NCBI GenBank assembly: GCA_036378675.1
Contig: DASUWA010000016.1
Coordinates: 62,001-126,000, forward strand
Reading direction: 5' to 3'
DNA: 64,000 nt
Origin: Acidimicrobiales bacterium
GTDB lineage: Bacteria; Actinomycetota; Acidimicrobiia; Acidimicrobiales; Palsa-688
Shown here: one piece after another, positions 41,680-63,384 of the stretch
Layout of the letters: each line of letters begins with the position of its first letter
Position numbering within the stretch: position 1 is the stretch's first letter
Program-made: the position numbers and the translations under genes
The notes under the pieces: generated by a model
What the model was told of the DNA's origin: nothing
Seen by the model: only the letters and a program-made list of their open reading frames with translations
Database searches by the model: none

Positions 41680-41735
41680 TGGTGTCGGAGGGGGGACTTG
41701 AACCCCCACGGGATTGCTCCCACTAGCCCCTCAAT
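41680..41735 (-). tRNA. 3' fragment of tRNA-Leu(GAG), probable attachment-site scar
   Basis: Reading the minus strand, the anticodon loop TTGAGGG is followed by GCTAG, a long variable arm with GGGAGCAATCCC, the T arm GGGGGTTCAAGTCCCCC (41691-41707), acceptor strand CTCCGAC, discriminator A and encoded CCA (41680-41682). The matching 5' half is absent: the sequence before the loop (CCGGA) cannot pair with GCTAG and no D arm exists. Precisely such 3' segments, anticodon to CCA, are copied by tyrosine-recombinase islands. GTTGACA repeats at 41855-41875 resemble recombinase arm sites. Confidence 0.8.
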
Positions 41736-41871
41736 CCGGCCCGGCTCATAAGGTCTGGGAGGGTTCAGAGAGTTTGGGCAGGTCAACTCAACTGAGAGTC
41801 TCGACCGTTTTAAGTCTGGTGAGGTTGTCAGAGGGTGCCGCGGTCAAGTTGCGTTGACAAATCCGTTGACA

Positions 41872-42540
41872 TCACTCGCCAGACAATGGCCGAACGAACC
41901 GCCGTTGCTGGCTTGTATATGGCGGTCCGACCAGGGTCGATCCGCCGGACGGATAGCTGTCACCCTGAAGCGTTAGCAGGACCGTCCCGTCCCAGTGATG
42001 GTCGTCGCGGACCCCCGTATCGGCCGCCGCGGTCGAAGTGATGCGCACGCTCACGAAAGTCGAGTCCGGCTCGAAGCCCGCAACCTCGCTCCCTGGGCAG
42101 TAGTGGGTCCAGTCGGCGTTTCGGTGCTGGCCCTCGGGCACCATGATCGGCCCGGAGCGGCCAGAGAACGTGATGGACCCGCGCTCAGACTCGCGGAAAG
42201 CGTTGACCATCGCCGGTCCGGGTCCGTGGTTGAATATCGCGAATTGAACTGTCAGCCTCATTCCGGTCGCGTAAAAGTCCTCCCTGCTGAGATGACCAAG
42301 CCCTGTTCCATCTGACCGCACGAATGGTTGGGGCGTCACTTCGACTGTCAGGATTGGGGTGCGACCAACCGCGACTAGCTGCTGGTTGACGTCAATCTCT
42401 CGCTTGGTTGCCTCAACGAGCCCGCGCGTCAGGACCACATAGACAGCGGTCACAGCGACCAGCACGAGGGCGGCGAAGAACTGGAGCGCCCCTGAATGGA
42501 CGTCCAGCCAGCGAAGGAACCCATGCCCGGCCGCGACCAC
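41872..42540 (-). CDS. membrane-anchored protein of unknown function
   Basis: A 222-aa protein with one N-terminal membrane helix (FFAALVLVAVTAVYVVLTRGLV) followed by a coiled segment (ATKREIDVNQQLVAVG) and a beta-rich cytoplasmic domain (TPILTVEVTPQPF; LTVQFAIFNHGPGPAMVNAF; FVSVRITSTA). The NHGxGPA pattern is common in phage-island and actinobacterial membrane orphans. It lies just inside the tRNA scar. Function unknown. Confidence 0.6.
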   Translation of the reverse strand: MVAAGHGFLRWLDVHSGALQFFAALVLVAVTAVYVVLTRGLVEATKREIDVNQQLVAVGRTPILTVEVTPQPFVRSDGTGLGHLSREDFYATGMRLTVQFAIFNHGPGPAMVNAFRESERGSITFSGRSGPIMVPEGQHRNADWTHYCPGSEVAGFEPDSTFVSVRITSTAAADTGVRDDHHWDGTVLLTLQGDSYPSGGSTLVGPPYTSQQRRFVRPLSGE

Positions 42541-42701
42541 CGATGCGATGGTAAATCGGGCGCGTGGACCAGCCGCGGATGGTTAGTTGGGTGTGCCTCT
42601 ATAGAACGGTCCGAATCGCTGTCAGTCGCTCCGACAGTTCATTGACTGCACGGTGGGTCGGCTCCCACGCAGCTCGGGTCAGTGTCCCGTGGACCCAACC
42701 G

Positions 42702-43343
42702 CTAATTCCCACGACGAGGAGGATCAGGAGCCGATGGCGATCGCAACGACAGGAGCCTCATAATCGCCTGCTCGGCATTCGCCATATCGAGCGCGGTCTG
42801 CTTGGCAGTGCGCTGAACGACGGCCTCTGTTCCGGGTCCAGCCATTGCGAGGTAGGCGTTGAACCGCTCGCCCGAAAGAAATCCCTGCGTCAAGAGAGAT
42901 TGCTCATCGACTCCTCTGATCCGCCCGGACGCCAGAAGTCGGTGAGTGAACTCGGTTGAGAGTGCGAACAGGGGTGTCCGTTGGAGCGCCTCGACGTTGA
43001 CTCTCAACTCCTGTCGCGCCGACTCCATCATGTCGAGGTCGGCTGCCTCGCTCTCCTGTTGCTGGGCCTTTCTCTGTGCGGCGAGCTGTCCTTGAATCTC
43101 CCGAGCGCTGGCTTTTACCTGTCGGTCCGTGGCGAGCAGAACGGCTACGGCGCCGATTACTGCCGCACCGAATGGAACGGCAACCTGTGTCACCCAATCG
43201 AAGTCCTGATGTATCTGGATTATTTCGGAGTGCAAGCCGACATCGTGACAGACCAGCCGAAGCCCCAGACCCGCTACCCGGTCGCGGCCTGGTCCCTTCC
43301 AGTCGTCCGGTTGCCTGGCACCCGACATCGTCGCCAGCAGCAC
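42702..43343 (-). CDS. membrane protein with coiled coil, unknown function
   Basis: Up to 213 aa; a GTG at 43253 is a more plausible start, giving 183 aa. A single membrane helix (VTQVAVPFGAAVIGAVAVLLA) is followed by a coiled-coil stalk (VKASAREIQGQLAAQRKAQQ) and a helical domain with RTPLFALSTEFTHRLLASGR. No family recognised. It shares strand and topology with the 41872 protein and could form a pair with it. Confidence 0.55.
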   Translation of the reverse strand: MLLATMSGARQPDDWKGPGRDRVAGLGLRLVCHDVGLHSEIIQIHQDFDWVTQVAVPFGAAVIGAVAVLLATDRQVKASAREIQGQLAAQRKAQQQESEAADLDMMESARQELRVNVEALQRTPLFALSTEFTHRLLASGRIRGVDEQSLLTQGFLSGERFNAYLAMAGPGTEAVVQRTAKQTALDMANAEQAIMRLLSLRSPSAPDPPRRGN

Positions 43344-43396
43344 CCGGAATCAACGGGACAAGAGTGGTCAGTACGCGACAGACCTCGGACCGGATT

Positions 43397-43663
43397 TCAA
43401 CAGCTGGGAGCTTCTCGCCCCGGCAGTGATTGGGTCCCCTTGACCAGATCAGCGGCGTCGCAGCCCAGCGCTTTGGCAAGGCGGGCGATGAGGTCGAGGC
43501 TGGGGTTGCGGTCGCCAGTCTCGAGGGAGCCGATGTAGGTCCGGTGCAGTCCAGCTTTGTGCGCAAGCCCTTCCTGGGACAGGTCGAGGGCGAGCCGCCG
43601 TTGCCGCACCCGATCACCGAATAATCGCTGACGAGGCGTGACGCCCTTCCCGGTTCCGGCCAC
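43397..43663 (-). CDS. XRE-family transcriptional regulator
   Basis: An 88-aa protein consisting of an HTH_XRE domain: FGDRVRQRRLALDLSQEGLA, HKAGLHRTYIGSLETGDRNP, SLDLIARLAKALGC. The short tail ends with a Cys. It is divergent from the next gene and may be the repressor of the accessory block, as in integrative elements and phage-derived islands. Confidence 0.85.
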   Translation of the reverse strand: MAGTGKGVTPRQRLFGDRVRQRRLALDLSQEGLAHKAGLHRTYIGSLETGDRNPSLDLIARLAKALGCDAADLVKGTQSLPGREAPSC

Positions 43664-43724
43664 CCAGACAGTCGAGAGGACCTCCTACTCGGGGTCGACA
43701 GAATCGGGGTAACATCCCCTGCCC

Positions 43725-44318
43725 ATGCCCACTGGACCCATCCGACACCCCGGCGAAGGTCCGAAAACCGCCAAGGACACGCCTGACGTCGAACATATGG
43801 GGGTCATAAAAGCGCAGGTGGTGGAGAGGGAGCCCAGGATTACAGCTTTGAGGGAGGAACTGGAGCGGGAAACGCGCGATCAGGGCGTCGACATGGCGCT
43901 CCTTTCCTCCTGGGGCCTGAGCTACCGGCGAATCGCTGCCATAGCTGGCGTAGTTCCTCAGACCGTCATCAACCGCGTCACGGGCGTGCGACCAGAGCAA
44001 GTCTCCGCGGTTCAGTCAGCGGGGGTTGCCGCGACGGTCCGTGTCGAGCCTGTGCGGACAAAGACACATCGAACCATCGACATCAACGGGTCGGACAAGC
44101 GGCCCAAGTTCTTCACCGTCGGAGAGGTCGCTGAAGCCCTGAAAATGTCCACCAAGACAGTTCGACGGCGGATAGCCGACGGATCGCTCAAGGCTGCGCG
44201 GATCGGCAGCTCGATCCGAATAGCCGAGGCCGACCTGTTGGAGTTCATGGAAAAGTCCCGCGGCAGGCCCCATACGAATCCCAAGCTGCGGATCATCAAG
44301 AAGAGAAAGCAGCCGTAG
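43725..44318 (+). CDS. protein with excisionase-type helix-turn-helix
   Basis: A 197-aa protein with two DNA-binding-like parts. The first (SYRRIAAIAGVVPQTVINRVTG) resembles a resolvase-like HTH. The C-terminal domain (FFTVGEVAEALKMSTKTVRR, IADGSLKAARIGSSIRIAEAD, LLEFME) is the excisionase/MerR-like winged HTH. A Met at 43797 may be the true start. Such proteins act as recombination directionality factors or regulators in mobile elements, in keeping with the adjacent tRNA scar. No integrase gene is found beside it. Confidence 0.72.
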   Translation: MPTGPIRHPGEGPKTAKDTPDVEHMGVIKAQVVEREPRITALREELERETRDQGVDMALLSSWGLSYRRIAAIAGVVPQTVINRVTGVRPEQVSAVQSAGVAATVRVEPVRTKTHRTIDINGSDKRPKFFTVGEVAEALKMSTKTVRRRIADGSLKAARIGSSIRIAEADLLEFMEKSRGRPHTNPKLRIIKKRKQP

Positions 44319-44336
44319 GTACCAATCAGTGCCGCT

Positions 44337-44996
44337 GTGACGCAGCCACATGAGGTTCACAAGCCCGTTGGTGATCCCGCTCTCCCCCACGAACCGTCGA
44401 AGCGGGACATCCGACGGCAGCATGACGCCGAGAATGTGCGGGACTCGGTACGACGGATGCACTACCACCAGCACACGGTTGGAGAGCAAGCCGGGGCCTA
44501 CATGTCGCATTGCCACGATGACGACGGTCCTGGTCATGTGCATCCTCCGCGCCAGGTCTTCCCCGTCAGAGCCGACGGTGGCTATCTCGAGGAGAGTGGC
44601 CCGTCACTGGGTCGAGAGGCGCCTGAGGAACTCAGGGCCCATGTCACCCGAGTTCTCCTACGGTTCCTAAGCGCATCGCGGACACCTGATCACCAGGTGA
44701 TGCGGTGGAGCCTCCGGCTCTTCTGCGGGCACGTCGTGGAGGCGACCGCCCACATCAGCTACGAGACGGTCCAGCAGGCGTTCCATGGCAGCCACCGCTG
44801 TGCGGAGTGCGGACTCGATCCTGCCGTCATCGTTGCGGCGAAACCGGTCGGCCGGGTCGCTCAGCCACCCGTTCCCGTGAAGACCGGGCCGGACTCCCCC
44901 AGGTTGAGCCAGCTGCAAGCACGGCTCAAGACCGCCGAAGCGAAGGTTGCAGCGCTCAGTGAGGAGATCGAGCAACTGGAGCACCCGGAGCCCTAA
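44337..44996 (+). CDS. small metal-binding-like protein with coiled-coil tail
   Basis: The 219-aa frame is open from 44337, but the convincing part is about 99 aa from ATG 44700 (or GTG 44697). RLFCGHVVEATAHI and SHRCAECGLDP give a CxH...CxxC zinc-site pattern. The tail (LSQLQARLKTAEAKVAALSE and on) is a coiled coil. No family name. The region before 44700 is His-rich and less regular, and the minus frame on top of it is probably a shadow. Confidence 0.5.
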   Translation: MTQPHEVHKPVGDPALPHEPSKRDIRRQHDAENVRDSVRRMHYHQHTVGEQAGAYMSHCHDDDGPGHVHPPRQVFPVRADGGYLEESGPSLGREAPEELRAHVTRVLLRFLSASRTPDHQVMRWSLRLFCGHVVEATAHISYETVQQAFHGSHRCAECGLDPAVIVAAKPVGRVAQPPVPVKTGPDSPRLSQLQARLKTAEAKVAALSEEIEQLEHPEP

Positions 44997-45040
44997 GCCC
45001 TTTCCGGTCGAGCCGTGGCCGTCTCAGGCCATATGGATAA

Positions 45041-45595
45041 TGGGGAGATGGCCCACCTTCTGATCACCCGCGTGCCGGGGCCGGCAAGTCGTTCTTCTGT
45101 CGCTGGCTAACTCGCGAACACGAATACCTTCATATTAAGACTGAGCACTCCCCGCGGGCACCGCAGTCCAAGCACTGCTCGATCCGACACCGGGAAATGT
45201 GAAGCCGGCGGCCGAGGCGCTCAAGAGTCGAGGGCCGAACGTCGTACTCGAGTGAGGATTCGCCCCGTCACAACTCGGTAAGGTTCGCAAGGTCATCCGC
45301 TCAGGGTTTGATCACTGGTGGTTCGGCGGGGATGGGGCCGCCGCAAGGCTCGCCTTCCTCCACCGCGGTGCACAACGCTCAGAAGCGAGCATCCAGGAGC
45401 TCGCCGACAGCGTCGTGGAGCGCCGGCGTCGAGCTGGCGAGGCGGGAGGTGTCGGAGGACGAGCTGCCTGCCTCCGCGTCGACACCGACAACAAGCGAGC
45501 CTGGATCATTGAGCTCTGCTGTTCGATCATGGTGGGGTCGGCCATCAAGAGCCGCAACTTCTGCATCCCGATCGCCTTGAGGTCGAGTTCATCGT
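45041..45595 (+). pseudogene. broken genes: P-loop fragment and a second frameshifted fragment
   Basis: Frame 45041-45202 reads AGAGKSFFCRWLTREHEYLHI, a Walker A P-loop with no start and an early stop. A second stretch, 45256-45597, reads GFDHWWFGGDGAAARLAFLH and QELADSVVERRRRAGE, then shifts frame and ends with PDRLEVEFIV and a stop. Neither stretch has a start codon or ribosome binding site. They may be pieces of one decayed ATPase gene or of two genes. Confidence 0.5.
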
Positions 45596-46495
45596 CTAGG
45601 CGGATGGGCGCTGCCAGCGAGGTTTACCGTCCTCATCCCACGGGCTCCACATGTCCCGACCGTCATTCGACGGGCGTTCCTCAAGCCACATCTTCCCGTA
45701 GAAGCGATCGAGTTGGTAGCAGAGCCGGTCAAACCTGTCCCGGCTCTGTGTGGTGGACTTGAGGCTCACTGGTGCAGCCACAGGGACAAGGACGTCCGCT
45801 GCGGCGGTCTCCTGCGTTGCCTCAGACTTGAATGCCCCGAGGGCCGCCTTCTTGGCGAGTAACAGTTCGACGTCCGCCAGTTTCCGGTTCGGTACAGGGT
45901 CGCGGCCACGTCGAACGGCGAACTCCTGGGCGGTTTGTAGGAATAGGTCGCCGGGGCTCTTCCCGCTGGTCTCATCAGGGAACGCCTCCTTGACCGTCGG
46001 CCAGGGGCTCTCTGGAGGCCAGGCGTCGTCGAGGTGGGCGAGCTCCTCCCAAGGAGCGAACTCCGCGCCGTCGAGAGTCACCGCACCGCCGGCCGAGGCC
46101 GTACCTCGCTGGAGGAGGTAGAGCAGCTGCACGTAACGCTGTTCGGTGAGCTCTACCGGAGCGAAAGCCGTAGCAATCTTGTTCAGCGGCCAGAGTCGGA
46201 ACGCCCACGGGTGGTTGGGGGGATGGGTGAACTGGATCGCCAAGGCCGGCAGCTTCTCGTGCACCGACCCAGCCACGACCTTGAACTGCAACCCGCTCAA
46301 GTCGAGCTCGCCGTCCTCGACCGACTTGTACTCGGCGGCGACGGACAAGTCCCCGCCCGGGGTCTCCAGCAGAAGCTTCCGACCTGTCGCGGTGCGTATC
46401 TCGTCCCGGTCGTAAACGTAGAGATTGCGCGGCCACTGGTCGCGATGGCGTTCCCTTAGCGCCCTCTCTGCCATAGCACCGGCGGCCCCTGCCAT
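45596..46495 (-). CDS. uncharacterised protein of about 300 aa
   Basis: From the ATG at 46495, which has TTGGGGAG upstream; the frame is open to 46600. The N-terminal half looks like a small-molecule or nuclease-like fold with RNLYVYDRDEIRTATGRKLLLE, GDLSVAAEYKSVEDGELDL and FTHPPNHPWAFRLWPLN. The AEYKSVE segment and ExK-like pairs could be read as a nuclease core, but I cannot fit a full PD-(D/E)xK pattern. The C-terminal part is helical (VELLLAKKAALGAFKSEATQ). No family recognised. The predicted start agrees with a normal ribosome binding site, so the gene is probably functional. Confidence 0.65.
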   Translation of the reverse strand: MAGAAGAMAERALRERHRDQWPRNLYVYDRDEIRTATGRKLLLETPGGDLSVAAEYKSVEDGELDLSGLQFKVVAGSVHEKLPALAIQFTHPPNHPWAFRLWPLNKIATAFAPVELTEQRYVQLLYLLQRGTASAGGAVTLDGAEFAPWEELAHLDDAWPPESPWPTVKEAFPDETSGKSPGDLFLQTAQEFAVRRGRDPVPNRKLADVELLLAKKAALGAFKSEATQETAAADVLVPVAAPVSLKSTTQSRDRFDRLCYQLDRFYGKMWLEERPSNDGRDMWSPWDEDGKPRWQRPSA

Positions 46496-46707
46496 AGTGC
46501 TCCCCAAGTGTACGACTGGGGTGCGACGTGAGAGCGTTTGGTCGGTCCTGGTTTTGACGGGCAGCGAAAGTTGGGCTTGCAAAAGCGGAAAAACGAGCAC
46601 CTCCGTTTGCAGAGGCTCTGAAGACCCCGGCAGTGGGGCCTACGGGCAGGCGATCCGGGAAGGAGTGCGGGGAAGGCCGACTTCTCCCTGGGCTCTGAGT
46701 TTGCGAT

Positions 46708-46962
46708 TCAGAGTGCGAGAGGGCGGGTCCAGTCACTCGTCAGCAGCTGGACGACTCCCCAGCGTCCTGGATCTGGCGCAGCGGCTCCATCGAGGAAGAC
46801 ATTGCTTCTCGCGCCCACTCGGGCGGAGAAGTAGTAACTACTAGAGGCCGAATCCAAGACTGTTGGGTCCAGGAGATCATTGTCCCGAGCGGGGATTGAG
46901 GCACTTCCGAAAAGAGGATCAGGATCAACTAGGCCCAGCGATGCCGTCCTGACTGTTCGCAA
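46708..46962 (-). CDS. possible short protein or fragment
   Basis: 84-aa frame with partly protein-like composition (DPDPLFGSASIPARDND, SYYFSARVGARSNVFLDG). No ribosome binding site or family recognised. It lies in a region with no other gene between 46496 and 47167. Confidence 0.3.
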   Translation of the reverse strand: MRTVRTASLGLVDPDPLFGSASIPARDNDLLDPTVLDSASSSYYFSARVGARSNVFLDGAAAPDPGRWGVVQLLTSDWTRPLAL

Positions 46963-47167
46963 CTGCCCTCGTGCCTTGATGCAACTTTGGCCGTTATCAA
47001 CTGTGCCTCTATTAGTAACTCGTTCACGCGTTCCTTGGGTACTGTCGCACCGCCCAGATGAGCAGCGCTCGGCTCGATATGGTCGAGTTGTGCTCGCTTA
47101 CAACGCCGCGGGGGATCCGGTCCGCTCGAATGAGAATCCCAGGGTGTGGTCACCCTTTCGTGGCCAC

Positions 47168-47605
47168 ATGGTGCCGGACGCCAACGAAGACAGGAGGTCG
47201 AGAGCCACCGGCCAAGAAGAAAGAGCCAGCCCGCTCACACCAATTGAGACCGCGGGCGAAGGCGGGTGGCACGACGACCAACGCCTATTCCGTGACTATC
47301 TATTCTGTGACGAGACGGTCCGTCTCTACGGCATCGGTGCCTTGGCGGCGGCCACCGGCAAGAAGGCCTCAACGATTCGGAAGTGGATCGAGACGCGCGT
47401 CATCCTCGACAGCGGTTTCCGAACCCCGGGGATACGTGGAACCCTGGGTGACGCCGGTCGCCGCTTGTGGACCGGGGAGCAGATCGACGCCATCGTCAAG
47501 ATCGGCTCCGACGAGGGCGTTGTGGGTGTCCGCCGGCCGAGGCGGATGTCGGACACAAACTTCCCCGAACGATTGCGCACTCTGTGGATCCAGAACAACT
47601 GGTAA
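47168..47605 (+). CDS. helix-turn-helix protein (MerR/excisionase-like)
   Basis: About 145 aa from the ATG at 47168; the frame is open from 46880, but that upstream part is unconvincing. The core reads VRLYGIGALAAATGKKASTI, RKWIETRVILDSGFRTPGIR, DAGRRLWTGEQIDAIVKI: a winged HTH with a recognition helix followed by an RxLWTxEQ turn, as in actinophage and island regulators. It is the last + strand gene before the defence cluster and may regulate it or belong to the island's own machinery. Confidence 0.65.
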   Translation: MVPDANEDRRSRATGQEERASPLTPIETAGEGGWHDDQRLFRDYLFCDETVRLYGIGALAAATGKKASTIRKWIETRVILDSGFRTPGIRGTLGDAGRRLWTGEQIDAIVKIGSDEGVVGVRRPRRMSDTNFPERLRTLWIQNNW

Positions 47606-47638
47606 CCACCAGTTCGATGGGGGAGTTCTCCCTCCGCT

Positions 47639-47926
47639 TTAAACCCGTCCCCGTGATTTCGGAAAACAGCCCAGGCACGGTAGATGCCGTGAGCCGATAG
47701 CGACTTCCAGGTTCATTGGAACGATGTCGCCTCTGGATCCGCCTCGCTCCTCAACTTTGTCCTGCCCTCTAAGCAGCATTTCGCAAGACGGATGTGCATG
47801 GAATGCGGTTGACCCACTCGATACGTAAACGGTCGGGGGATAAGGCTTGGGCTTGCATCGTTGGCAGTAAGGCAGATTGTCGTCGTCACACAACCGACCC
47901 GCTGCCCACTCTTTCTCAGTCAGCAT
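47639..47926 (-). CDS. Cys-rich small protein
   Basis: A 95-aa protein with Cys/His pairs: LPYCQRCKPKPYPPT, FHAHPSCEMLLRGQ and LPCLGCFPKSRG. Two CxxC motifs (CQRC and CLGC) and a C-terminal CF suggest a zinc-binding fold, perhaps a single-module Ada- or HNH-adjacent ribbon. No family recognised. It is divergent from the helicase gene 289 bp away. Confidence 0.5.
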   Translation of the reverse strand: MLTEKEWAAGRLCDDDNLPYCQRCKPKPYPPTVYVSSGSTAFHAHPSCEMLLRGQDKVEERGGSRGDIVPMNLEVAIGSRHLPCLGCFPKSRGRV

Positions 47927-48214
47927 GGTTCACACGACTCGCCGCGCCAACAGACTGCCAAGCTCCAACCGAATGAACATCTGCCCCTCCAAATATCAAC
48001 TGTCGCCTACTACCGGCGTCGACAGGTTGTCACCGCACCTTGAACTTCGGGTAGCAAGTACCTCCCATTTTGCTCAGCGGCCCTAGGGGCCGAACTCGCT
48101 CAGTCAGCTTTCCCAAAACCGGCGCAAAGGCGACAATCACCTCATTTTTCCTGCTTCCGTCGAACTGTCCCACCCTCCTGCAATACTGATCGTCGTGAGT
48201 GCGGGGCAGACGCG

Positions 48215-51200
48215 GTGCCGGCGAGGTTAGAGGAGCTCGTTCCTGACGCTGTCGTGAGGGGCCTGATTCCTGGCGAGGCCGTGACGGTTGTGGCTGTTCG
48301 GTGGGCCGGTACTCGCAGCCGCGTTGTCACCTATCGGACCACGAGCGGTCGGGTGGATGAACAGGTCGTCTACCGAGACCAGGAGGACTTTCTCGGACTC
48401 GAGGCCGGCGCTAGTCGCCAATGGTCATTTACGGGCGATCCGGCTTTGTTCCGGCTGGTCGCTGAAGCGCGACGGATTCGACTGGCCTACCTGTTCGATC
48501 CCAGGCTCGCGGTCCACCTCTCACTAATCGAGCCTCTCCCCCACCAGATCACCGCGGTCTACGGGGAGATGCTGCCGCGCCAGCCCTTGCGGTTCTGTCT
48601 CGCTGACGACCCCGGAGCCGGCAAGACGATCATGGCCGGCCTCTACATCAAGGAGCTCATGCTTCGAGGGGATCTCCAGAGGTGCCTGGTAGTTGCTCCC
48701 GGTGGTCTGGTAGCTCAGTGGCAGGACGAGTTGTATGAGAAGTTCGGCCTCAGCTTCGACATCTTGACCAAGGACCTAATTGAGGCGTCCCGTACCGGTG
48801 ATCCGTTCTTCGAGCGACCGCTGCTTCTCGCGCGACTTGACCACCTATCTCGCCGGGACGATCTCGTCGAGCATCTGGCCGCGTCGGACTGGGACTTGGT
48901 GGTTGTCGACGAAGCTCATCGGATGGCCGCTCACTATTTCGGCAATGAGGTCAAAGAAACCAAGCGATACCGGCTCGGCAAAGCCCTGGGGGCCGTTGCT
49001 CGCCACTTGTTGCTTATGACCGCCACTCCCCATGCAGGGAAAGAGGAAGATTTCCAGTTGTTCATGGCCCTCCTCGACGCTGACCGCTTCGAGGGCAAAC
49101 AGCGAGACGGAGTCCACACGGCCGACACATCCGACCTGATGCGTCGGATGGTTAAGGAGAAGCTCCTCCGCTTCGATGGTCGGCCCCTGTTTCCCGAACG
49201 GAGGGCCTACACGGTCGACTACGAGCTGACGGACGCTGAAATGCTGCTCTACGCCGAGGTCACCGACTACGTGGCCGAGGAGATGGGCCGGGCGGATCGT
49301 CTGAAAGACGAAGGTGAGGGCCGGCGGGGTAACCGGGTCGGATTCGCGGTTACAGTTCTGCAACGTCGCTTGGCGTCGAGTCCCGAGGCGATCTACCAAT
49401 CCTTGGCGCGGCGGCGGAAGCGGCTTGAGGACCGAGCGCGGGAGGCCAAGGCACAGACCAGGGTGGCGTCCATCCTCGCCAATCAGCAGCTGGCAGTAGA
49501 TATAGAAGACCTTGACGAGGACATCGAAGATCTCGAAGGTGAAGAGCTCGAGGAGCTGGAGGAGCAGCTGGTTGACGAGGCAACGAGCGCCCGCACTCTC
49601 GCCGAACTGGAAGCTGAAATCGCCACGCTCACCCGGCTGGAGGGCCGAGCCGACGCCGTCAGGAAGTCCGGCGTGGACAAGAAGTGGACTCAGCTGCTGA
49701 CGGTGCTGGGCGACGAACCGGAGATGTTCGACCACAGCGGTGCGCGCCGGAAGCTGATCGTGTTCACCGAGCACCGCGACACCCTCAACTACCTGGTCAC
49801 CAAACTGAGCTCTTATCTCGGCAAGGCCGAAGCCGTGGTAGCGATTCACGGGGGAGTGCCCCGAGAACAGCGCCGTGTGATCCAGGAACGATTTACACAG
49901 GACCCCGACTGCACCATCCTCGTCGCGACAGATGCCGCGGGAGAAGGACTCAACCTTCAGCGCGCTCATCTGCTGGTCAACTACGACCTGCCCTGGAACC
50001 CGAACAGGATCGAGCAGCGATTCGGTCGGGTCCACCGCATCGGCCAGACCGAGGTCTGTCACCTCTGGAACCTGGTCGCCACCGAAACCCGTGAGGGTCA
50101 GGTGTATGCACGGCTCCTCGACAAGCTGAGCGAGATGCGTGAATCGCTCGGCAAGGACCAGGTCTTCGACGTACTCGGCGACGCCCTGCCCGGCAGCGAA
50201 CTCAAGGACCTACTCATCCAGGCCATCCGCTACGGCGACCGCCCAGAAGTCAAAGCCCAACTCGACGAGGTTATCGACGGCAGGGTCGGTGAGGGACTGG
50301 CCGAACTGGTGCAGCAGCATGCCCTCAGCTCGGAAATCATCAGCACCGCCGATCTCGAACGAATACGAGCTGACATGCTCGAAGCCGAAGCCCGCAAACT
50401 TCAACCCGGATATGTCCACGCCTGGTTTGCACAAGCCTTCGGCAATCTCGGTGGTCGGATGTCAGACCGGGAGAGCAGCAGATATGAAGTCACCTTCGTT
50501 CCCGCCGAGATACGGCACCGCGACCGGCTCATCGGTAACACCGTTCCCGTGCTCCCCCGTTATCAGCGCGTCACTTTCGACAAGGCTCTCATTCGCCAAG
50601 AAGGCGTACCCCTAGCCGAGCTCGTCGCACCCGGCCATCCGCTACTAGAGGCCGTTCTCGACATCATCACCGAGCGCCACAGCATGCTTCTAGAGGAAGG
50701 AGCGGTACTGGTTGATCCCTCGGAGACTCGACGGGAACCTGCGGTGCTCGTCTTCCTTGAGCATGCGGTCACCGACGCTCGCACGGACCCTGGCGGTAAT
50801 CGGCGTACCGTCTCGCGCCGGTTCCAATTCGTCGAGATAACTGATTCCGGTGAACTCCGGCCCGCTGGCTATGCCCCATACCTCGACGCGAGAGCACCCA
50901 CAGAGGACGAGGCGAGCCGCATCAAGGAACTCCTCCCCAAAATGACCTGGCTAGGCGGCGACATCGAAAGCCGCGCCTTGGACTACGGCATAGACACCCT
51001 TGCCTCCGAACATCTTGCCGAGGTGCGCCAGAACACACTGGAGCGTGTCGAGAAGGTCAAGGCTGCTGTCCAGGCCCGCCTTACCAGGGAAATCACGTAC
51101 TGGGACCACCGGGCTAGCGACCTCCAACTCCAAGCCGACGCCGGGAAAACGCCTCGGATGAATCCCGACCGGGCTGCTTCCCGAGCCGACGAACTACAAC

Positions 51201-51736
51201 GTCGCAAACAGACGCGGCTGGGCGAACTCGACAGGGAGGCCCAGCTGGCCTCCCAACCCCCTGTTGTCGTTGGAGCAGCGCTGGTACTCCCTGCTCGACT
51301 CCTTGCGGGCGGCACTCCGGTCGGACATCGACCCCCGACCATTGACACCGAAGAAGTCGAGCGACGAGCCGTAGACGCCGTCCTACGGATCGAAGCAGAA
51401 GCTGGCAGGACCGCGAAGGAGATGCCGCATTTCAATCCGGGATACGACGTTCGGTCCACCGCGCAGGACGGAACGATCACCTTCCTCGAGGTGAAGGGCC
51501 GGGTGTCCAGCGCGAGGACCTTCGTCGTCACGCAGAACGAGCTCCGGTTCGCCGCGAACATCCCCGATGCTTACGTCCTCGCGATGGTCGATGTTTCCGA
51601 GGACGGGCCTGACCATGACCGAGTCAGGTATCTGATGAAGCCGTTTGGTGCCGATGTCAGACTGCCGTTCGATACCACCTCAACCACCCTCGCCTGGACG
51701 CCGTACTGGCAACGGGCCACACCGCAGGACATCTGA
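48215..51736 (+). CDS. SNF2-family helicase with C-terminal DUF3883-like domain (defence helicase)
   Basis: A 1173-aa protein. The helicase core starts after ~110 aa: Q-like region SLIEPLPHQ, Walker A ADDPGAGKTIMAGLYIKEL (~131-139), the DEAH box VVVDEAHRMA, motif III LLMTATPHAGKEEDF, a long coiled-coil insert (~400-490, Glu-rich: DIEDLDEDIEDLEGEELEE), then motifs V/VI ATDAAGEGLNLQRAHLLVNY and QRFGRVHRIGQ. The C-terminal ~90 aa (FNPGYDVRSTAQDGTITFLE, then VKGRVSS and VTQNELRFA) resemble the DUF3883 nuclease-like fold seen in defence helicases such as DrmD. The start is GTG at 48215, and its stop overlaps the methylase ATG (TGATG). DNA translocation on foreign or unmodified DNA is inferred. Confidence 0.9.
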   Translation: MPARLEELVPDAVVRGLIPGEAVTVVAVRWAGTRSRVVTYRTTSGRVDEQVVYRDQEDFLGLEAGASRQWSFTGDPALFRLVAEARRIRLAYLFDPRLAVHLSLIEPLPHQITAVYGEMLPRQPLRFCLADDPGAGKTIMAGLYIKELMLRGDLQRCLVVAPGGLVAQWQDELYEKFGLSFDILTKDLIEASRTGDPFFERPLLLARLDHLSRRDDLVEHLAASDWDLVVVDEAHRMAAHYFGNEVKETKRYRLGKALGAVARHLLLMTATPHAGKEEDFQLFMALLDADRFEGKQRDGVHTADTSDLMRRMVKEKLLRFDGRPLFPERRAYTVDYELTDAEMLLYAEVTDYVAEEMGRADRLKDEGEGRRGNRVGFAVTVLQRRLASSPEAIYQSLARRRKRLEDRAREAKAQTRVASILANQQLAVDIEDLDEDIEDLEGEELEELEEQLVDEATSARTLAELEAEIATLTRLEGRADAVRKSGVDKKWTQLLTVLGDEPEMFDHSGARRKLIVFTEHRDTLNYLVTKLSSYLGKAEAVVAIHGGVPREQRRVIQERFTQDPDCTILVATDAAGEGLNLQRAHLLVNYDLPWNPNRIEQRFGRVHRIGQTEVCHLWNLVATETREGQVYARLLDKLSEMRESLGKDQVFDVLGDALPGSELKDLLIQAIRYGDRPEVKAQLDEVIDGRVGEGLAELVQQHALSSEIISTADLERIRADMLEAEARKLQPGYVHAWFAQAFGNLGGRMSDRESSRYEVTFVPAEIRHRDRLIGNTVPVLPRYQRVTFDKALIRQEGVPLAELVAPGHPLLEAVLDIITERHSMLLEEGAVLVDPSETRREPAVLVFLEHAVTDARTDPGGNRRTVSRRFQFVEITDSGELRPAGYAPYLDARAPTEDEASRIKELLPKMTWLGGDIESRALDYGIDTLASEHLAEVRQNTLERVEKVKAAVQARLTREITYWDHRASDLQLQADAGKTPRMNPDRAASRADELQRRKQTRLGELDREAQLASQPPVVVGAALVLPARLLAGGTPVGHRPPTIDTEEVERRAVDAVLRIEAEAGRTAKEMPHFNPGYDVRSTAQDGTITFLEVKGRVSSARTFVVTQNELRFAANIPDAYVLAMVDVSEDGPDHDRVRYLMKPFGADVRLPFDTTSTTLAWTPYWQRATPQDI

Positions 51737-54468
51737 TGGCCACCAAGCTCATAGAAGTCGCTCTGCCCCTCGACCTCATCAACAAAGAAGCAGCCCGCGA
51801 AAAGTCAATCCGCCAAGGGCACCCTTCCACACTGCACCTTTGGTGGGCCCGCAGACCCCTTGCCGCCTGTCGTGCCGTCCTATTCGCTCAGCTAGTGGAC
51901 GATCCGTCGGCGCACCCCGAACGATTTCCAACAGAAGAAGCCCAAGACGCCGAACGGCAGCGCCTGTTTCGAATCATCGAGCGCCTCGTTCCTTGGGAGG
52001 CGTCTACTGACGAGAAGCTGCTTGAGGAAGCTCGGGCCGAGATAAGAAAGTGTTATCCAGAGGCTGTTCCTCGCATCATGGACCCTTTCTGCGGAGGTGG
52101 CTCCATCCCGCTTGAGGCCCAACGTCTAGGTGTTGAGGTAGACGCCAGCGATCTCAATCCCGTTGCGGTTCTGATCACTAAAGCCCTGACCGAGATTCCC
52201 AACCGGTTCTCTGGACGTGCTCCCGTCCATCCGATGGATCACGATCGCTTACGTTTGGAAGGCTGGACGGGTTCCGCCGGTCTAGCCGACGATGTTCGCT
52301 GGTACGGCAACTGGATGCGAGGCCAAGCAGAAGAGCGAATCGGTCATCTCTATCCCAAGGCCAACCTCCCAGACGGTAGACAAGCGAAGGTCATCGCCTG
52401 GCTTTGGGCTCGCACAGTTACTTGTCAGAACCCCGCCTGCGGAGCTCTGGTTCCTCTGGCCCGTTCCTTCTGGCTCAATACGAAAGCAGGAACCGAAACC
52501 TGGGTGAACCCTATTCGTGATGTCACCACCAACCGCATTCGCTTTGACATTGGTCACGGAAAGTCCGGTCCACCCGTTGAAGGGACAGTAACCCGAACTG
52601 GGGCGGTTTGCCTTTTCTGCAATAGTCCTACGTCGCTCCCTTACATACGCTCCGAAGGCAAGGCGGGACGCTTGGGAGCACAACTGATGGCTGTGGTCAC
52701 TGAAGGCAATCGCAAGCGGGAGTATCTACCTCCGGATCCGAACCAAGAATCTGCGGGCTTACTAGACCGGCCGAATGGTGCTCCGGATACCGAGCTTCCA
52801 GAACAGGCTTTGGGCTTTAGGGTTCAGTTGTATGGGATGACAGGCCACTCGGACCTTTTCACGAACCGACAACTCACGACCCTTTGTACGCTGACCGACT
52901 TGGTTTCCGAGGCTCGGGCGCTAATTCTCACGGATTCCGGCGGAGACCACGACTATGCGAACGCTGTAGCTACATACCTGGCATTCGTATGCAGTTCCAT
53001 TGCAGATGATTTGTCCACGATTGTGACCTGGCGGTCAGGGCACGGGACAGGCGCTACCCGTAGCACATTTGCACGCCAAGCCCTTCCTATGACATGGGAC
53101 TTTGCGGAGGCGAATCCCTTTGCCTCCGCAGCTGGCGATTTAGGAACCTCCGCAGAAGCTCAGGCCAAAACGATCGAACGGCTTCCAGCCAAGGGATCCG
53201 TATGCGTAAGACAAGCGGACGCGATGTCGGTTGACTTCACCGGACATGTTCTGGCTACGGATCCCCCTTACTACGACAACATTGGTTATGCCGACCTAAG
53301 TGACTACTTCTATGTCTGGCTTCGGCGCTCGCTTCATACGGCTTACCCGGACCTCTTTAGCACGCTTCTCACTCCGAAGACTGAGGAACTCATAGCGAGT
53401 CCTTTCCGACATAGCGGAAGTCGAGACTTGGCGGAAGCACACTTCGAGCAAGGATTCGCGCGAGTTTTCTCTAAAGCGGCGTCGGGGAGCGACACCGATA
53501 CGCCGATGATCGTCTTCTATGCATTCAAACAGAGTGAGGCGGATGCTGAGGAAGAAGGATTATCCGGGACACGGCAAGCCGTTGCATCCACCGGGTGGGA
53601 GAAGATGTTGACGGCGCTCTTGGGGGCTGGGCTCTCTGTGACCGCAACATGGCCAATGCGAACGGAACGAGGGTCTCGTTCGGTCGGTATAGGAACGAAC
53701 GCTCTTGCTTCGTCCATCATCCTCGCGTGCCGCTCCAGGTCCCTCGACGCCGGAGTGACCGACAGGCGCGGGTTTCAACAAGCCCTGCGAGGCCGATTGC
53801 GAGAAGACTTGCGCATTCTTCAGTCCGGCGGAATCGCACCCGTTGACCTTGCTCAGGCCGCTATTGGCCCCGGCATGGCCGTCTTCTCTCGATATGAACG
53901 AGTAATCGAACCGGATGGACGGTCAATGAGCGTGCGTCGGGCACTCCAGCTAATAAACCAGGTGCTGGATGAGGTGACTGCGGAGCAAGAGGGCGAGTTT
54001 GACGAGGACACCCGCTGGGCGATCGCCTGGTTCTCAGAACATGGCATGGACGATGGCTCGTACGGACGCGCGGATGACCTGAGCCGTGCAAAGAACGTCT
54101 CCGTCGATGGCCTTGTGAGAGCTGGGATCGTCAAGTCCGGCGGCGGTAAGGTCCGTCTGCTCGACCGATCAGAACTTGACGCCGCGTGGGACCCCAGGAC
54201 CGATCCGCGGTTGACCGTTTGGGAGGTGACGCAACACCTTATTCGCCGTCTCATGGACGATAGTGAGGCGTCTGCCGCGGAACTCCTGGCTCGAGTGGGG
54301 GGACTCGGGGATGCGGCTCGTGACCTAGCGTACAGGCTCTTCCAGATTGCGGAGTCGAAGAAGTGGGCGAAGGAAGCCAGCCCATACAACGCCCTGGCAG
54401 CGGCGTGGCCGGAGTTGTCGAGGCTTGCCGCAGCTGGGCCGATGGGCCAAGGATCGTTGAACGTCTAG
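51736..54468 (+). CDS. DUF1156-type DNA adenine methyltransferase with zinc ribbon
   Basis: A 910-aa class beta/gamma-like N6-adenine methylase. The N-terminal DUF1156 signature is KSIRQGHPSTLHLWWARRPL at residues ~24-41, followed by the SAM-binding motif I DPFCGGGSIPLEA (116-128). The catalytic motif is DPPYYDNIGYADLSDYFY (509 onward), and a zinc ribbon lies between them (CQNPACG ... CLFCN). The order and size match large adenine methylases of helicase-methylase-ATPase clusters. It probably marks self DNA so that the system acts only on unmodified DNA. The gene is translationally coupled to the helicase, and its product may depend on the other subunits for target choice. Confidence 0.9.
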   Translation: MATKLIEVALPLDLINKEAAREKSIRQGHPSTLHLWWARRPLAACRAVLFAQLVDDPSAHPERFPTEEAQDAERQRLFRIIERLVPWEASTDEKLLEEARAEIRKCYPEAVPRIMDPFCGGGSIPLEAQRLGVEVDASDLNPVAVLITKALTEIPNRFSGRAPVHPMDHDRLRLEGWTGSAGLADDVRWYGNWMRGQAEERIGHLYPKANLPDGRQAKVIAWLWARTVTCQNPACGALVPLARSFWLNTKAGTETWVNPIRDVTTNRIRFDIGHGKSGPPVEGTVTRTGAVCLFCNSPTSLPYIRSEGKAGRLGAQLMAVVTEGNRKREYLPPDPNQESAGLLDRPNGAPDTELPEQALGFRVQLYGMTGHSDLFTNRQLTTLCTLTDLVSEARALILTDSGGDHDYANAVATYLAFVCSSIADDLSTIVTWRSGHGTGATRSTFARQALPMTWDFAEANPFASAAGDLGTSAEAQAKTIERLPAKGSVCVRQADAMSVDFTGHVLATDPPYYDNIGYADLSDYFYVWLRRSLHTAYPDLFSTLLTPKTEELIASPFRHSGSRDLAEAHFEQGFARVFSKAASGSDTDTPMIVFYAFKQSEADAEEEGLSGTRQAVASTGWEKMLTALLGAGLSVTATWPMRTERGSRSVGIGTNALASSIILACRSRSLDAGVTDRRGFQQALRGRLREDLRILQSGGIAPVDLAQAAIGPGMAVFSRYERVIEPDGRSMSVRRALQLINQVLDEVTAEQEGEFDEDTRWAIAWFSEHGMDDGSYGRADDLSRAKNVSVDGLVRAGIVKSGGGKVRLLDRSELDAAWDPRTDPRLTVWEVTQHLIRRLMDDSEASAAELLARVGGLGDAARDLAYRLFQIAESKKWAKEASPYNALAAAWPELSRLAAAGPMGQGSLNV

Positions 54469-54483
54469 GCGGAGGGACGAGAG

Positions 54484-57400
54484 ATGGCAATAAGTAATCG
54501 TGATCGGGTTGGGCGGGCTCTTGAGCTCGTCGGTGTGGGCCTTGGCCCGTATGTGGGCCGGCGAATGACTAAGAGGACACCAGTGGGCGGTAACTGGACA
54601 GCCGCATACCCCGGTGAGAACGTCAACACCGATACTTCCATTCTCATCACGGTGATCTTGGACCACTGGCAGGACGTGTTCCGTGAGGAGTTGAAGACCA
54701 CCGGCCGGAACCTGGTCGGCGAGGTCAGGGACTGGCGCAACAAGTGGGCCCATCATGAGGCGTTCTCTCACGACGACGCCTACAGAGCACTCGATTCAGC
54801 CGAACGCCTGCTCGCGTTGATCGACGCCAAGGAGGCGGCGCAGGTCGGTAAGTCCAAGAACGAGGTCATGCGCGCCAAGTACGAGGCCGAGGCCAAGAGC
54901 GCCACCCCGAGTTCAGCAGCTCTTTTCGCCGAGCCAGCGGGGGGTCTACATCCCTGGCGGGATGTCGTCGTCCCTCATGACGACGTTGCGAAGGGTAAGT
55001 ATGACGTTGCGGAGTTCGCCGCCAATCTCTACCAGGTGGCGAGGGGTGAGGGCCTGGCGGAGTACACCGACCCGGTCGAGTTCTTCCGCCGTACCTACCT
55101 GACCGTCGGGCTCCGTTCACTTCTAACCCAGGCAGCGCATCGGATCACAGGATCGGCGGGGGCACCGGTGGTCAATCTCCAGACCAACTTCGGCGGCGGC
55201 AAGACCCACTCCATGATCGCGCTGCACCATCTTTTCGGCGGCCTTCAGCCGAGCGACTTCCCACAGGAGCTTCAGGAGCTTTTGGGTGCGGCTGGAGTGG
55301 CGACGTTGCCGTCGGTCACTCGAGCTGTGGTGGTCGGCACTCAACTCTCTCCGGGCCAGCCGGAGAAGAAGGGGGACGGCACCGAGGTACGAACGATCTG
55401 GGGCGAGATTGCCTGGCGGCTGGGCGGCAAGGACGCCTTCGAGATGGTCGCCGAGGCCGACCGCACGGCCACCAGCCCTGGCGCTGCCATCGAAGACGTT
55501 CTCCGCATCTGCTCACCATGCCTGATCCTCGTCGACGAGTGGGTGGCCTATGCCCGTCAGATGTTCGAGACTCGAGAGCTGCTCCCTGGTGGTCTCTTCG
55601 AGACACAGTTCTCCTTCGCCCAGACCCTGGCCGACGCCGCCATCGCAGTACCAGGGGCGCTTCTCGTCGTCTCCCTTCCTGTCTCGGACGACCCGGCCCG
55701 ACCTGGGGTCAGCCCCATCGGTTCGGAAGCAGAGGTCGGGGGTGCCGCGGGACAGGAGGCTGCTCGCCGACTCGGAAACGTCATCGGACGCACAGAGGCG
55801 TCGTGGAGACCTGCCTCGGCGGAGGAAAGTTTCGAGATTGTTCGCCGGAGGCTGTTCCAGCCGATCCCCACTGACCAGATCAAACACCGTGACGCAACTG
55901 CGAGAGCTTTCGGCGAGTTCTACCGAACACAGTCAGCTGAGTTTCCTGGCGACGCTCGGGAACCCGCCTACGTGGATCGGATCAAGTCGGCGTACCCGAT
56001 TCATCCTGAGTTGTTCAGCCGCCTGTATGAGGATTGGTCAGCCCTAGAGGGATTCCAGCGGACTCGCGGTGTCCTGCGTCTTATGGCCGCCGTCATCTCA
56101 GCCTTGTGGGCAGCCGGGGACAAGTCCCCGCTGATCTTGCCGGCCAATGTCCCGCTTGACGATCCTGCCGTCGAGTCGGAGTTGACCCGCAACCTTGACC
56201 ACGCGTGGCAGCCAATTATCGACTCCGACGTGGACGGCCCCAACTCGGTGCCGAGAAAGGTGGACAACGACTTCCCAAACCTTGGCCGCTACAGCGCCGC
56301 CCGCCGGGCTGCACGAACTGTCTTCCTGGCCTCGGCACCGCGTTCGGCGTCGCCCAACCTGGGCGTGGAACTTCAAAGGATCAAGCTGGGCTGCTCGCTG
56401 CCCGGCGAGGCAGTGGCCACCTACGGGGATGCCCTCAACCGGCTGACTGACCGTTCATCCTTCCTCTACGTCGAGGGTGCCCGGTTCTGGTACGGCACCC
56501 AAGCCTCGGTCGCCAGACGGGCCCGTGACCTGATCGAGCAATACCTGTCAACACGGCGGGAAGAGCTACATGCCCACATCGTGAAGCTGCTTGAGCCGCT
56601 CAAAGCAGAGCGAGGTGAGTTCGCTGGGGTCCATGTTTGTCCGGACAATGCCACCGACGTGCCTGACGAAGCAGAGTGCCGCCTCGTAGTCCTCTCGCCC
56701 GCCACCCCGCACGTCAACAGAGACAACGACTCACAGGCCATGGTGGCAGCTAAGGCGTTGCTCGAACAGCGCTCGTCCGGGGCACGCCATTACCGCAACA
56801 TGCTCATCTTTCTGGCCGCTGACCAACGCCGCCTCGAGGAACTCGAACGAGGTACTGCTGAATCCCTGGCCTGGACCGAGATACGCCAACGATGGGAGGA
56901 ACTGGGTCTCGACGCCTTTGGGCGCAACCAGGCGGAGTCGAAGAAGAACGACGCCAACAACGCTGTAGCACTCCGCTTGGCCGAGACATTCCACTGGGCG
57001 CTGATACCGCATCAGCCCGATCCCACAGGGCCCATCGAGTGGGACACCACCAAGACCGACGGTCCGCTTGGGCCCGCGGCTCGGGCCAGCCGAAAGCTCA
57101 TTAACGACGGCTCCCTCAACGTGGCCTACGCAACTGAGTTGTTGCGGGGACTCCTCGGAGAAGGTGGTCCCTTGGCGACCGTGTGGGACAACGGTCATGT
57201 CTCAGTTAACGAGGTATGGGATGCCTTCGCCAGGTACCCCTACCTTCCCCGCCTCAGAGACATCAACGTCCTCACCCGTACCGTCGCGCAGGGGCCGGCC
57301 TCGATCACCTGGGAGCAGCACGGATTCGCCGTCGCCGAAGCGTTCGACGACAAGAACTCGCGATTCGTCGGACTTGTTACGGGCGCGGCCACCGACCACG

Positions 57401-57786
57401 TGACCGGCACGACCCTGATCGTGCGACCGGACCTCGCAGCCGCACAACTCGCTCGGGAAGCCGTCGTTACAGGTGCGACGTCTTCGGGAACAGTAGGCCC
57501 GGACCCTCGACCCTCAACGGAACAACTGGTGCCTGAGCCTGCCGATGAGAAGTTGCGGAGGTTCTATGCCATCGCTCATCTCGACTCCGAGCGGTACCAA
57601 CGTGACTTCTCTAAGATTGCCCAGGAGATAGTGACCAACCTCGCGGCTCACCTCGGAACGGCTCTGGACATCAGCGTGGAGATCCGAGCCACCAACGACG
57701 ATGGCTTTCCAGACAACGTCATCCGCACGGTGAACGAGAACGCCACAACGCTGAAACTCGATCAGTTCGGCTTCGAGAAGGACTGA
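54484..57786 (+). CDS. DUF499-type AAA ATPase with N-terminal HEPN-like domain
   Basis: An 1100-aa protein. The N-terminal ~100 aa are helical and include RNKWAHHEAFS (RxxxxH at residues 85-90), matching a Swt1-type HEPN motif, often an RNase. The DUF499 ATPase follows: Walker A TNFGGGKTHSMIALHH (GGGKT ~237-241), Walker B-like LILVDEWVAYARQ (~347-357), and a helical C-terminal half. The start has GGAGGGA seven bases upstream, 15 bp after the methylase stop. In related clusters this protein is a core component. The RNase activity of the HEPN part is inference, but the R-H pair and its surroundings are visible. Confidence 0.88.
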   Translation: MAISNRDRVGRALELVGVGLGPYVGRRMTKRTPVGGNWTAAYPGENVNTDTSILITVILDHWQDVFREELKTTGRNLVGEVRDWRNKWAHHEAFSHDDAYRALDSAERLLALIDAKEAAQVGKSKNEVMRAKYEAEAKSATPSSAALFAEPAGGLHPWRDVVVPHDDVAKGKYDVAEFAANLYQVARGEGLAEYTDPVEFFRRTYLTVGLRSLLTQAAHRITGSAGAPVVNLQTNFGGGKTHSMIALHHLFGGLQPSDFPQELQELLGAAGVATLPSVTRAVVVGTQLSPGQPEKKGDGTEVRTIWGEIAWRLGGKDAFEMVAEADRTATSPGAAIEDVLRICSPCLILVDEWVAYARQMFETRELLPGGLFETQFSFAQTLADAAIAVPGALLVVSLPVSDDPARPGVSPIGSEAEVGGAAGQEAARRLGNVIGRTEASWRPASAEESFEIVRRRLFQPIPTDQIKHRDATARAFGEFYRTQSAEFPGDAREPAYVDRIKSAYPIHPELFSRLYEDWSALEGFQRTRGVLRLMAAVISALWAAGDKSPLILPANVPLDDPAVESELTRNLDHAWQPIIDSDVDGPNSVPRKVDNDFPNLGRYSAARRAARTVFLASAPRSASPNLGVELQRIKLGCSLPGEAVATYGDALNRLTDRSSFLYVEGARFWYGTQASVARRARDLIEQYLSTRREELHAHIVKLLEPLKAERGEFAGVHVCPDNATDVPDEAECRLVVLSPATPHVNRDNDSQAMVAAKALLEQRSSGARHYRNMLIFLAADQRRLEELERGTAESLAWTEIRQRWEELGLDAFGRNQAESKKNDANNAVALRLAETFHWALIPHQPDPTGPIEWDTTKTDGPLGPAARASRKLINDGSLNVAYATELLRGLLGEGGPLATVWDNGHVSVNEVWDAFARYPYLPRLRDINVLTRTVAQGPASITWEQHGFAVAEAFDDKNSRFVGLVTGAATDHVTGTTLIVRPDLAAAQLAREAVVTGATSSGTVGPDPRPSTEQLVPEPADEKLRRFYAIAHLDSERYQRDFSKIAQEIVTNLAAHLGTALDISVEIRATNDDGFPDNVIRTVNENATTLKLDQFGFEKD

Positions 57787-57878
57787 GTCCGAGAGTCCAC
57801 AAATGTCCGCGTGCGGCGCGGATCACATGACGGGCCCGCCGTCGATCCATCACTCGACCAAGTCGGGGAGATGTACTT

Positions 57879-59984: not shown

Positions 59985-60230
59985 CAAAGGGGCTCGGCGC
60001 ATAAGCACGCCGCGTTCGTTCGGGTACTGTCAGCCTCTCGCGCGCGTGGGTAGCAAAGGAAATTTGCTGCTGCCATTGCCTACTATCGTCGGTTAAGGGG
60101 GTGGTATAGCTGGGCTAGCCAGGAGGCCGATTCGCGAATTTCGTGCCGACGCCCGTCTCACCCCCGCTCGCCCCGGCGGGCCCGACTGCCCGCCCTAGCC
60201 CTGGTTGGGAGCCTGGAAAATCGCGACAGC

Positions 60231-60263
60231 GACTAAACCTTTTCGGGTCCATGTGGCTTAATC
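60231..60263 (+). promoter_or_regulatory. conserved bipartite promoter element of the right ECF-PASTA operon
   Basis: GACTAAACCTT (60231-60241) and CTTAATC (60257-60263) repeat the element at 38938-38970 with the same internal spacing and the same 22-bp distance to the start codon. The bases between the boxes differ, which points to selection on the boxes themselves. Confidence 0.65.
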
Positions 60264-60278
60264 ACGAGTGGGTGCAGT

Positions 60279-60758
60279 GTGTTGGATTTCGAGGCGTTCT
60301 TCGCACGGGAGTACGAGCCGGTGACCAGGGCGCTGACTCTCGCGCTCGGCGACCGGCGGTCAGCTGAGGATGCCGCCCAGGAAGGTTTCGCCCGTGCTCT
60401 CAACAGCTGGTCTCGGGTGAAGGATATGGACAGACCAGCCGCGTGGGTGTACGTGGTTGCGATGCGGCATGAGCGCCGTCGGACGTTGAGGGATCGGATG
60501 CCGCTGCCCGTCCACAGGCGGGCGCGACGGGACGAGCCGGCGGAGGTTGAGAACCGAGTCCTGGTGACCGCCTTGTTGAGCCAGCTGACGCCTCGCCAGC
60601 GAATGGCGGTGGTGTTGCGCTATCACGCCGATCTCTCGCTCCAGGAGGTTGCGAAGGCCCTCGGCTGCAGAGTCGGAACGGCCAAGGCCACGCTGCACCA
60701 GTCGCTCACGCGGTTGAACAACGCGATCGAGAGGGACGGCAGCGATGCAAGACTCTGA
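60279..60758 (+). CDS. ECF-type RNA polymerase sigma factor, right copy
   Basis: A 159-aa paralogue of the protein at 38986, the same length to the residue. Region 2 has FEAFFAREYEPVTRALTLALG, AAQEGFARALNSW and RPAAWVYVVAMRHERRR; region 4 has QLTPRQRMAVVLRYHADLSL and CRVGTAKATLHQSL. GTG start; 14-bp overlap with the PASTA gene exactly as in the left copy. Differences cluster in the middle (RARRDEPAEVENR), so the two sigmas may have different partners or promoters. Confidence 0.9.
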   Translation: MLDFEAFFAREYEPVTRALTLALGDRRSAEDAAQEGFARALNSWSRVKDMDRPAAWVYVVAMRHERRRTLRDRMPLPVHRRARRDEPAEVENRVLVTALLSQLTPRQRMAVVLRYHADLSLQEVAKALGCRVGTAKATLHQSLTRLNNAIERDGSDARL

Positions 60759-61707: not shown

Positions 61708-61790
61708 CACCGTTCGACAAGCCGATTCGAGCGCCATGCCATCGGATCTCCGAGCGCTGCCGACTACGCTCTCGCCATCCGTACCCGGCT

Positions 61791-61814
61791 GTAATCGGAT
61801 GCGCTCACGTTCTG
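61791..61814. repeat. 24-bp direct repeat, copy 1
   Basis: GTAATCGGATGCGCTCACGT... occurs here and again, one base different, at 63329-63352, in the same orientation. It abuts the T-arm-like sequence at 61827. The pair encloses two minus-strand genes. Confidence 0.7.
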
Positions 61815-61826
61815 CGCCGGGGCGGG

Positions 61827-61843
61827 CCGGGATTCGAACCCGG
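61827..61843 (-). other. tRNA T-arm-like scar, not a complete tRNA
   Basis: CCGGG, a 7-nt loop ATTCGAA and CCCGG form a T-arm on the minus strand, and GC-rich acceptor-like bases follow. I could not build an anticodon stem or a D arm upstream, so this is a fragment or degenerate remnant. Confidence 0.5.
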
Positions 61844-62022
61844 CGTAGGCCTCACCGCCCGTAACCCGAGGGCTAGTCCGAAGTTCCTCTTCGGCTTCCG
61901 CCGCCGGCGAGTCCACCGTAAGGCGTCTCCGACAACGTCGTTCGCAATAACGCATCAACTCGGGAGCAATGGTTCACGCCGCAACTGAACCAGACCGCGC
62001 GCGTTCTGCGTCAGGGGAGGCG

Positions 62023-62298: not shown

Positions 62299-62450
62299 AG
62301 TACGACGCTAGGCCGACGGCGGTCGTCACCTCCGAAGAAAGCCGATGCCGATTACTTCGCCCTCGACGGCCCCCGCTCGGACCGTTCCGGTTGGTTATTG
62401 CGCTGACGTCCTGCGTCGTCACGCCGGCCGTCACCCCTCAGCAGCGGTTT

Positions 62451-63352: not shown

Positions 63353-63384
63353 ACGCGACATCCACCCACGCTTAGACCGTCTGC

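Follow-up and report, generated by a model that had tools for sequence, protein, structure and literature searches.

The fragment and the genes beside it

The window, the whole 64,000-nucleotide stretch of DNA analyzed here, comes from a genome of the Acidimicrobiaceae (G000; 4.14 Mb in 75 contigs, 97% complete) and carries on its minus strand the 3' part of a tRNA-Leu(GAG) gene, which runs from the anticodon loop to CCA and lacks its 5' half (Table 1). Read from 41734 to 41680, the fragment matches the 87-nt intact tRNA-Leu(GAG) gene of the same genome over 55 bases, at positions 33 to 87. Retained are GAG in the anticodon loop, the 3' strand of the anticodon stem, a paired variable arm, the T arm, the 3' acceptor strand, and CCA; the D arm and the 5' acceptor strand are absent from the sequence 5' of the fragment, which is not tRNA. 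Two blocks, TTGAGGGGCTAGTG (14 bases) and CGTGGGGGTTCAAGTCCCCCCTCCGACACCA (31 bases), are identical in the fragment and the intact gene, and the sole differences fall in the variable-arm stem-loop, which reads GGGAGCAATCCC in the fragment and CCCGCAAGGG in the intact gene.

ARAGORN found no tRNA gene in the window, an Rfam search with the fragment returned just a subthreshold chance match, and no virus contigs holding its core were found. A 25-base probe from the 3' part, allowing up to two mismatches, matched exactly two sites in the 4.14-Mb genome, the fragment and the intact gene, so the genome holds no decoy copies. The sequence-only reading of this DNA, which had described a tRNA-Leu(GAG) piece without its 5' half and had named several decoy copies as a finding that would count against an attachment site, is borne out on both points; the perfect match to 41680-41735 that it proposed to look for at the other end proved to be one of 89% identity with a differing variable arm.

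Table 1. Features of the probable integrated element within the window
Feature	Position	Strand	Evidence
3' part of tRNA-Leu(GAG), very probable attR-type junction of an integrated element	41680..41734	-	89% identity to the only intact tRNA-Leu(GAG), E 4.3e-14; identical 14- and 31-base blocks
Probable element end, from fragment to arm-like repeats, in place of tRNA 5' half	41735..41851	.	No tRNA similarity upstream of anticodon loop
Tandem arm-type repeat TGTCAACGGATTTGTCAACG, likely integrase arm sites	41852..41871	-	Motif also 60 bp past intact tRNA, same orientation
Probable element part inside window	41735..64000	.	Arm-site side of fragment; no intact tRNA on rest of C16
Excisionase-type HTH protein, candidate directionality factor or regulator	43725..44318	+	TIGR01764 excise, E 4.3e-12; phrog_66 excisionase, E 4.9e-9
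HmaA, helicase with NO VEIN C-terminal domain	48215..51736	+	PADLOC HmaA, 1495 bits
HmaB, DUF1156 adenine methylase	51736..54468	+	PADLOC HmaB, 1037 bits
HmaC, DUF499 ATPase with N-terminal HEPN_Swt1 domain	54484..57786	+	PADLOC HmaC, 917 bits; HEPN_Swt1, E 4.6e-25

On the arm-site side of the fragment, HmaA, HmaB, and HmaC are adjacent at 48215-57786 and constitute a predicted Hma defense system. Directly 3' of HmaC, at 57879-59984, lies a gene for a 701-residue protein with no Pfam, PADLOC, or NCBIfam match, possibly a fourth part of the Hma operon. A gene pair encoding a sigma factor and a PASTA-domain protein occurs twice, once outside the element (38986-40417) and once inside it (60279-61707), and the two pairs are 67% and 51% identical. 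The window belongs to contig C16, which extends 21.8 kb past its right edge; the element would continue to that contig end, and this remaining 21.8 kb contains no tRNA. Also in the element region are a remnant of a serine recombinase (G000:C16:129352-129957; L007:3352-3957) and a gene for a 2913-residue protein with laminin-G-like domains (L007:8132-16873). PHROGs searches with ten element proteins recognized integrase, excisionase, and HTH types only. No conjugation, replication, or virion genes were recognized among the element proteins scanned, and neither an FtsK-like translocase nor a replication initiator was found among the larger proteins scanned from the C14 end and the right part of C16.

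The intact gene and the two ends of the probable element

The only intact tRNA-Leu(GAG) gene of the genome lies on the plus strand of another contig (C14:41791-41877), 4.7 kb short of the contig end, and forms a unique pair with the fragment (C16:103680-103734). On its 5' side are ordinary genes for an enoyl-CoA hydratase, a hydrolase, and a TMEM175 channel, which adjoin the same tRNA in several genera of the family. On its 3' side, within the DNA of the presumed element and before the contig stops, are three genes without clear function, a tyrosine integrase gene, a gene for an HTH protein, and two small excisionase-like open reading frames (ORFs). The integrase (382 residues; L006:9144-10292, minus strand; 2.3 kb beyond the tRNA) has the domains Arm-DNA-bind_4 (PF14657), SAM_3 (PF14659), and Phage_integrase (PF00589; E 4.8e-22) and retains the catalytic motifs HxLRH and GHSS...Y. 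An integrase gene just within one end of the element, and an intact tRNA at that end with a 3' fragment in the same orientation at the other, are the arrangement of a tyrosine-integrase tRNA element, although we infer the linkage of the two ends.

A second feature ties these ends together. The tandem motif TGTCAACGGAT(T)TGTCAACG is present at both in matching orientations; its C14 copy (TGTCAACGGATTGTCAACG) begins 60 bp past the intact tRNA, and its C16 copy (TGTCAACGGATTTGTCAACG) lies 117 bp outside the fragment. The string TGTCAACGGA has one occurrence in C16 (147.8 kb) and one in the part of C14 that was read (31.6 kb), and among 108 loci the pattern TGTCAACGGATN{0,2}TGTCAACG is present only at these two ends (and copies of them) and in G004, the genome with the closest integrase fragment (72% identity), where the motif again sits just beyond a tRNA-Leu 3' end block. 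A further relative, G063, whose integrase is 57% identical and located after its own tRNA-Leu(GAG), has beside that tRNA a tandem repeat of its own that shares the 11-bp period and lies at a similar distance. Judged at the sequence level, the repeats at both ends, as expected of a tyrosine-integrase tRNA element, are likely integrase arm sites. Because the motif is shared, the C14 end and the DNA to the right of the fragment most likely belong to a single element as its two ends; this element would be uninterrupted and at least 49 kb long (at least 4.7 kb on C14 plus 44.1 kb on C16). The ends of C14 and C16 do not overlap, which leaves the middle of the element outside both contigs and its contiguity inferred.

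We therefore consider it very probable that an element has integrated in the single tRNA-Leu(GAG) gene and that the fragment marks its far junction (attR). The central proposal of the earlier reading, that the truncated tRNA marks the attachment site of an integrative element, gains support from the intact gene, the adjoining integrase, and the shared arm motif, and its assignment of the defense cluster to the element agrees with the position of the Hma system on the element side of the fragment. That reading had placed an intact tRNA-Leu to the right of the window; a complete copy was sought in the genome, and one exists, is unique, and fits the strand logic, but it lies on C14 rather than on C16. 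An intact gene bordered by unrelated DNA would have spoken against integration, and what follows the gene on C14 is the integrase.

In the mechanism that we propose, the tyrosine integrase would recombine attP of the element with attB in the tRNA gene, most likely by a crossover that spans the anticodon loop (7 bases), with the stem of that loop providing the core sites. The 5' half of the tRNA would stay at one end, where an element-borne 3' half would complete it; the product would be the intact C14 gene, with arm sites and the int/xis module beyond it. At the other end would remain the displaced 3' half, 41680-41734, with the second arm-site cluster of the element, at 41852-41871, before it. 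In pSAM2-type elements the crossover likewise falls in the anticodon.

Use of the same tRNA in relatives

Across 198 genomes of the order we found 28 other homologs of the integrase (E 1e-50). Related integrases target tRNA genes, often tRNA-Leu: a tRNA gene is present at 19 of the 28 loci, and in 11 of those it is a tRNA-Leu, with various anticodons. In seven genomes (G000, G007, G012, G027, G028, G029, and G050), 3' fragments of tRNA-Leu(GAG) start at tRNA position 29 to 34, in the anticodon stem or loop, which points to crossover there. In G012 the intact tRNA, the integrase, and the fragment are on one contig, with the tRNA and the fragment 7.3 kb apart. The DNA just before the tRNA-Leu fragments of G027 and G050, which belong to different families, is alike (TGGTCACGGCAGGT; L043 before 1236, L044 after 8967), and this likeness suggests that related elements use the tRNA-Leu(GAG) site across families. 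No empty site was seen in a close relative, and synteny of the genes to the left of the fragment is not conserved among family members, which left nothing with which to compare the restored chromosome.

In several relatives (L049, L053, L054, L082, L083, L089, L090, and L042), an ORF antisense to tRNA-Leu(GAG) converges on the tRNA and ends inside its T loop, with the C-terminal sequence VGGGT and a TGA stop codon 16 nt within the tRNA. We considered that this tRNA-adjacent gene might be a conserved host gene and rejected the idea; wherever it is long enough to recognize, its sequence is that of a large serine recombinase. Serine integration into tRNA genes has been termed rare, with tRNA-Leu cases reported in Mycobacterium (PMC3218068). 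In G004 a serine-recombinase element (L054:1920-8221) lies between the tRNA and the tyrosine-integrase element, and the tRNA block left behind begins at AAGTCCCCCC, in the T loop, which suggests that this is the serine crossover point. In relatives, tRNA-Leu(GAG) is a hotspot shared by unrelated integrases of the tyrosine and serine types.

A possible mosaic tRNA and alternative readings

The variable arms of the fragment and of the intact gene are both self-paired, so their difference is not simple decay, and the 89% identity means that the displaced half and its counterpart in the intact gene have different origins. In nearly all relatives the intact gene has CCCGCAAGGG or TCCGCAAGGA. The arm of the fragment, GGGAGCAATCCC, is found in genus g10 (in G021, and in the fragment of G028; both belong to the family of G000) and in G063 (g3), and a related arm, GGGCGCAAGCCC, is found in g3, g4, and g16. 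In an rpoB tree, g3, g4, g10, and g16 form one clade (100/100), and G000 is sister to G007, which has TCCGCAAGGA, outside that clade (100/98); the rows of G018, G023, and G003 were apparently in the wrong frame and had very long branches, with the placement of G000 unaffected. Since the fragment arm matches that of another clade, one of the two tRNA halves in this genome was probably imported from another lineage, as far as sequence comparison can tell.

Which half was imported would depend on the point of crossover. Crossover in the anticodon loop would make the displaced half the previous version of the chromosome's own gene, perhaps left by an earlier element. Crossover in the T loop would mean that the variable arm of the fragment arrived with the present element and that the resident tRNA was never altered. 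This variant of our reading is possible, though we lean against it: GGGAGCAATCCC occurs (in g10 and in G063 of g3) within a clade that stands apart from G000 in the rpoB tree and the 3' half of the intact gene is the commonest type in the order, but the start of all seven fragments falls in the anticodon stem or loop, and in G027 and G012 it is the fragment rather than the intact gene that resembles the native version of close relatives. A broader idea may be entertained, speculative and on balance doubtful, namely, that one integrative element after another replaces the 3' half of the family's only tRNA-Leu(GAG) (variable arm, T arm, and CCA) with that of another genus, leaving the previous half at the far end. 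If this is true, the halves left behind document past hosts, and the tRNA, an essential one, is a mosaic.

In a different history, two or more elements would have accreted at the tRNA: an older one on C16 would have the fragment as its junction, and the C14 integrase would belong to a newer, different one whose far junction lies elsewhere. This would fit the foreign variable arm and the serine-recombinase remnant within the element region. Relatives show the site to be a hotspot, elements being stacked in G004 and probably in G012, and C14 and C16 do not join. We nevertheless judge accretion improbable, since the same arm motif stands at both ends and has no further copy on C16 or in the stretch of C14 that was read, and the genome holds a single fragment, although at 97% completeness a contig may be missing. 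The reading of the fragment as a tRNA-Leu pseudogene, a decayed duplicate unconnected with integration, can be given hardly any credence, for although broken tRNA genes occur and its variable arm is not identical to that of the resident gene, the cut falls exactly at the anticodon loop, the variable and T arms are intact and paired, the arm motif is common to the fragment side and the integrase-bearing end, and six other genomes share the cut point.

Comparison with known systems

Under the preferred reading, of one element integrated in the tRNA gene, a 55-base scar is mapped as the end of an element, for which a partner, an integrase, and arm sites are predicted, and an Hma defense system is placed on a probable mobile element in the Acidimicrobiaceae. 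The mismatched tRNA halves would be a rare sequence record of the source lineage of an att site. This type of structure is well known (PMC3218068, PMC8371274), and the event is an ordinary one with an unusually clear, slightly mosaic junction; what is new is this member, its defense cargo in the Acidimicrobiaceae, and the lineage mismatch of the two tRNA halves.

The closest known system is that of the AICEs (pSAM2 type), actinobacterial integrative elements residing in tRNA genes, which a 2011 survey reported to be absent from the Acidimicrobidae (PMC3218068). The present element differs from AICEs in its probable length of at least 49 kb and its defense cargo, and no AICE translocase or replication gene was seen in the parts scanned here. 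The Hma genes resemble the described system (PADLOC; PMC8565338) in comprising HmaA, HmaB, and HmaC in order (917 to 1495 bits) and differ in that HmaC carries its HEPN_Swt1 domain upstream of the model-covered region and is followed by the matchless 701-aa protein. Like genomic and defense islands whose tyrosine integrases target tRNA genes, the element has int/xis genes at one end, arm-type repeats, anti-phage cargo, and an att core that would lie over the anticodon loop (the three tRNA positions preferred for integration are summarized in PMC8371274); unlike those islands, its intact and displaced tRNA halves differ in the variable arm.
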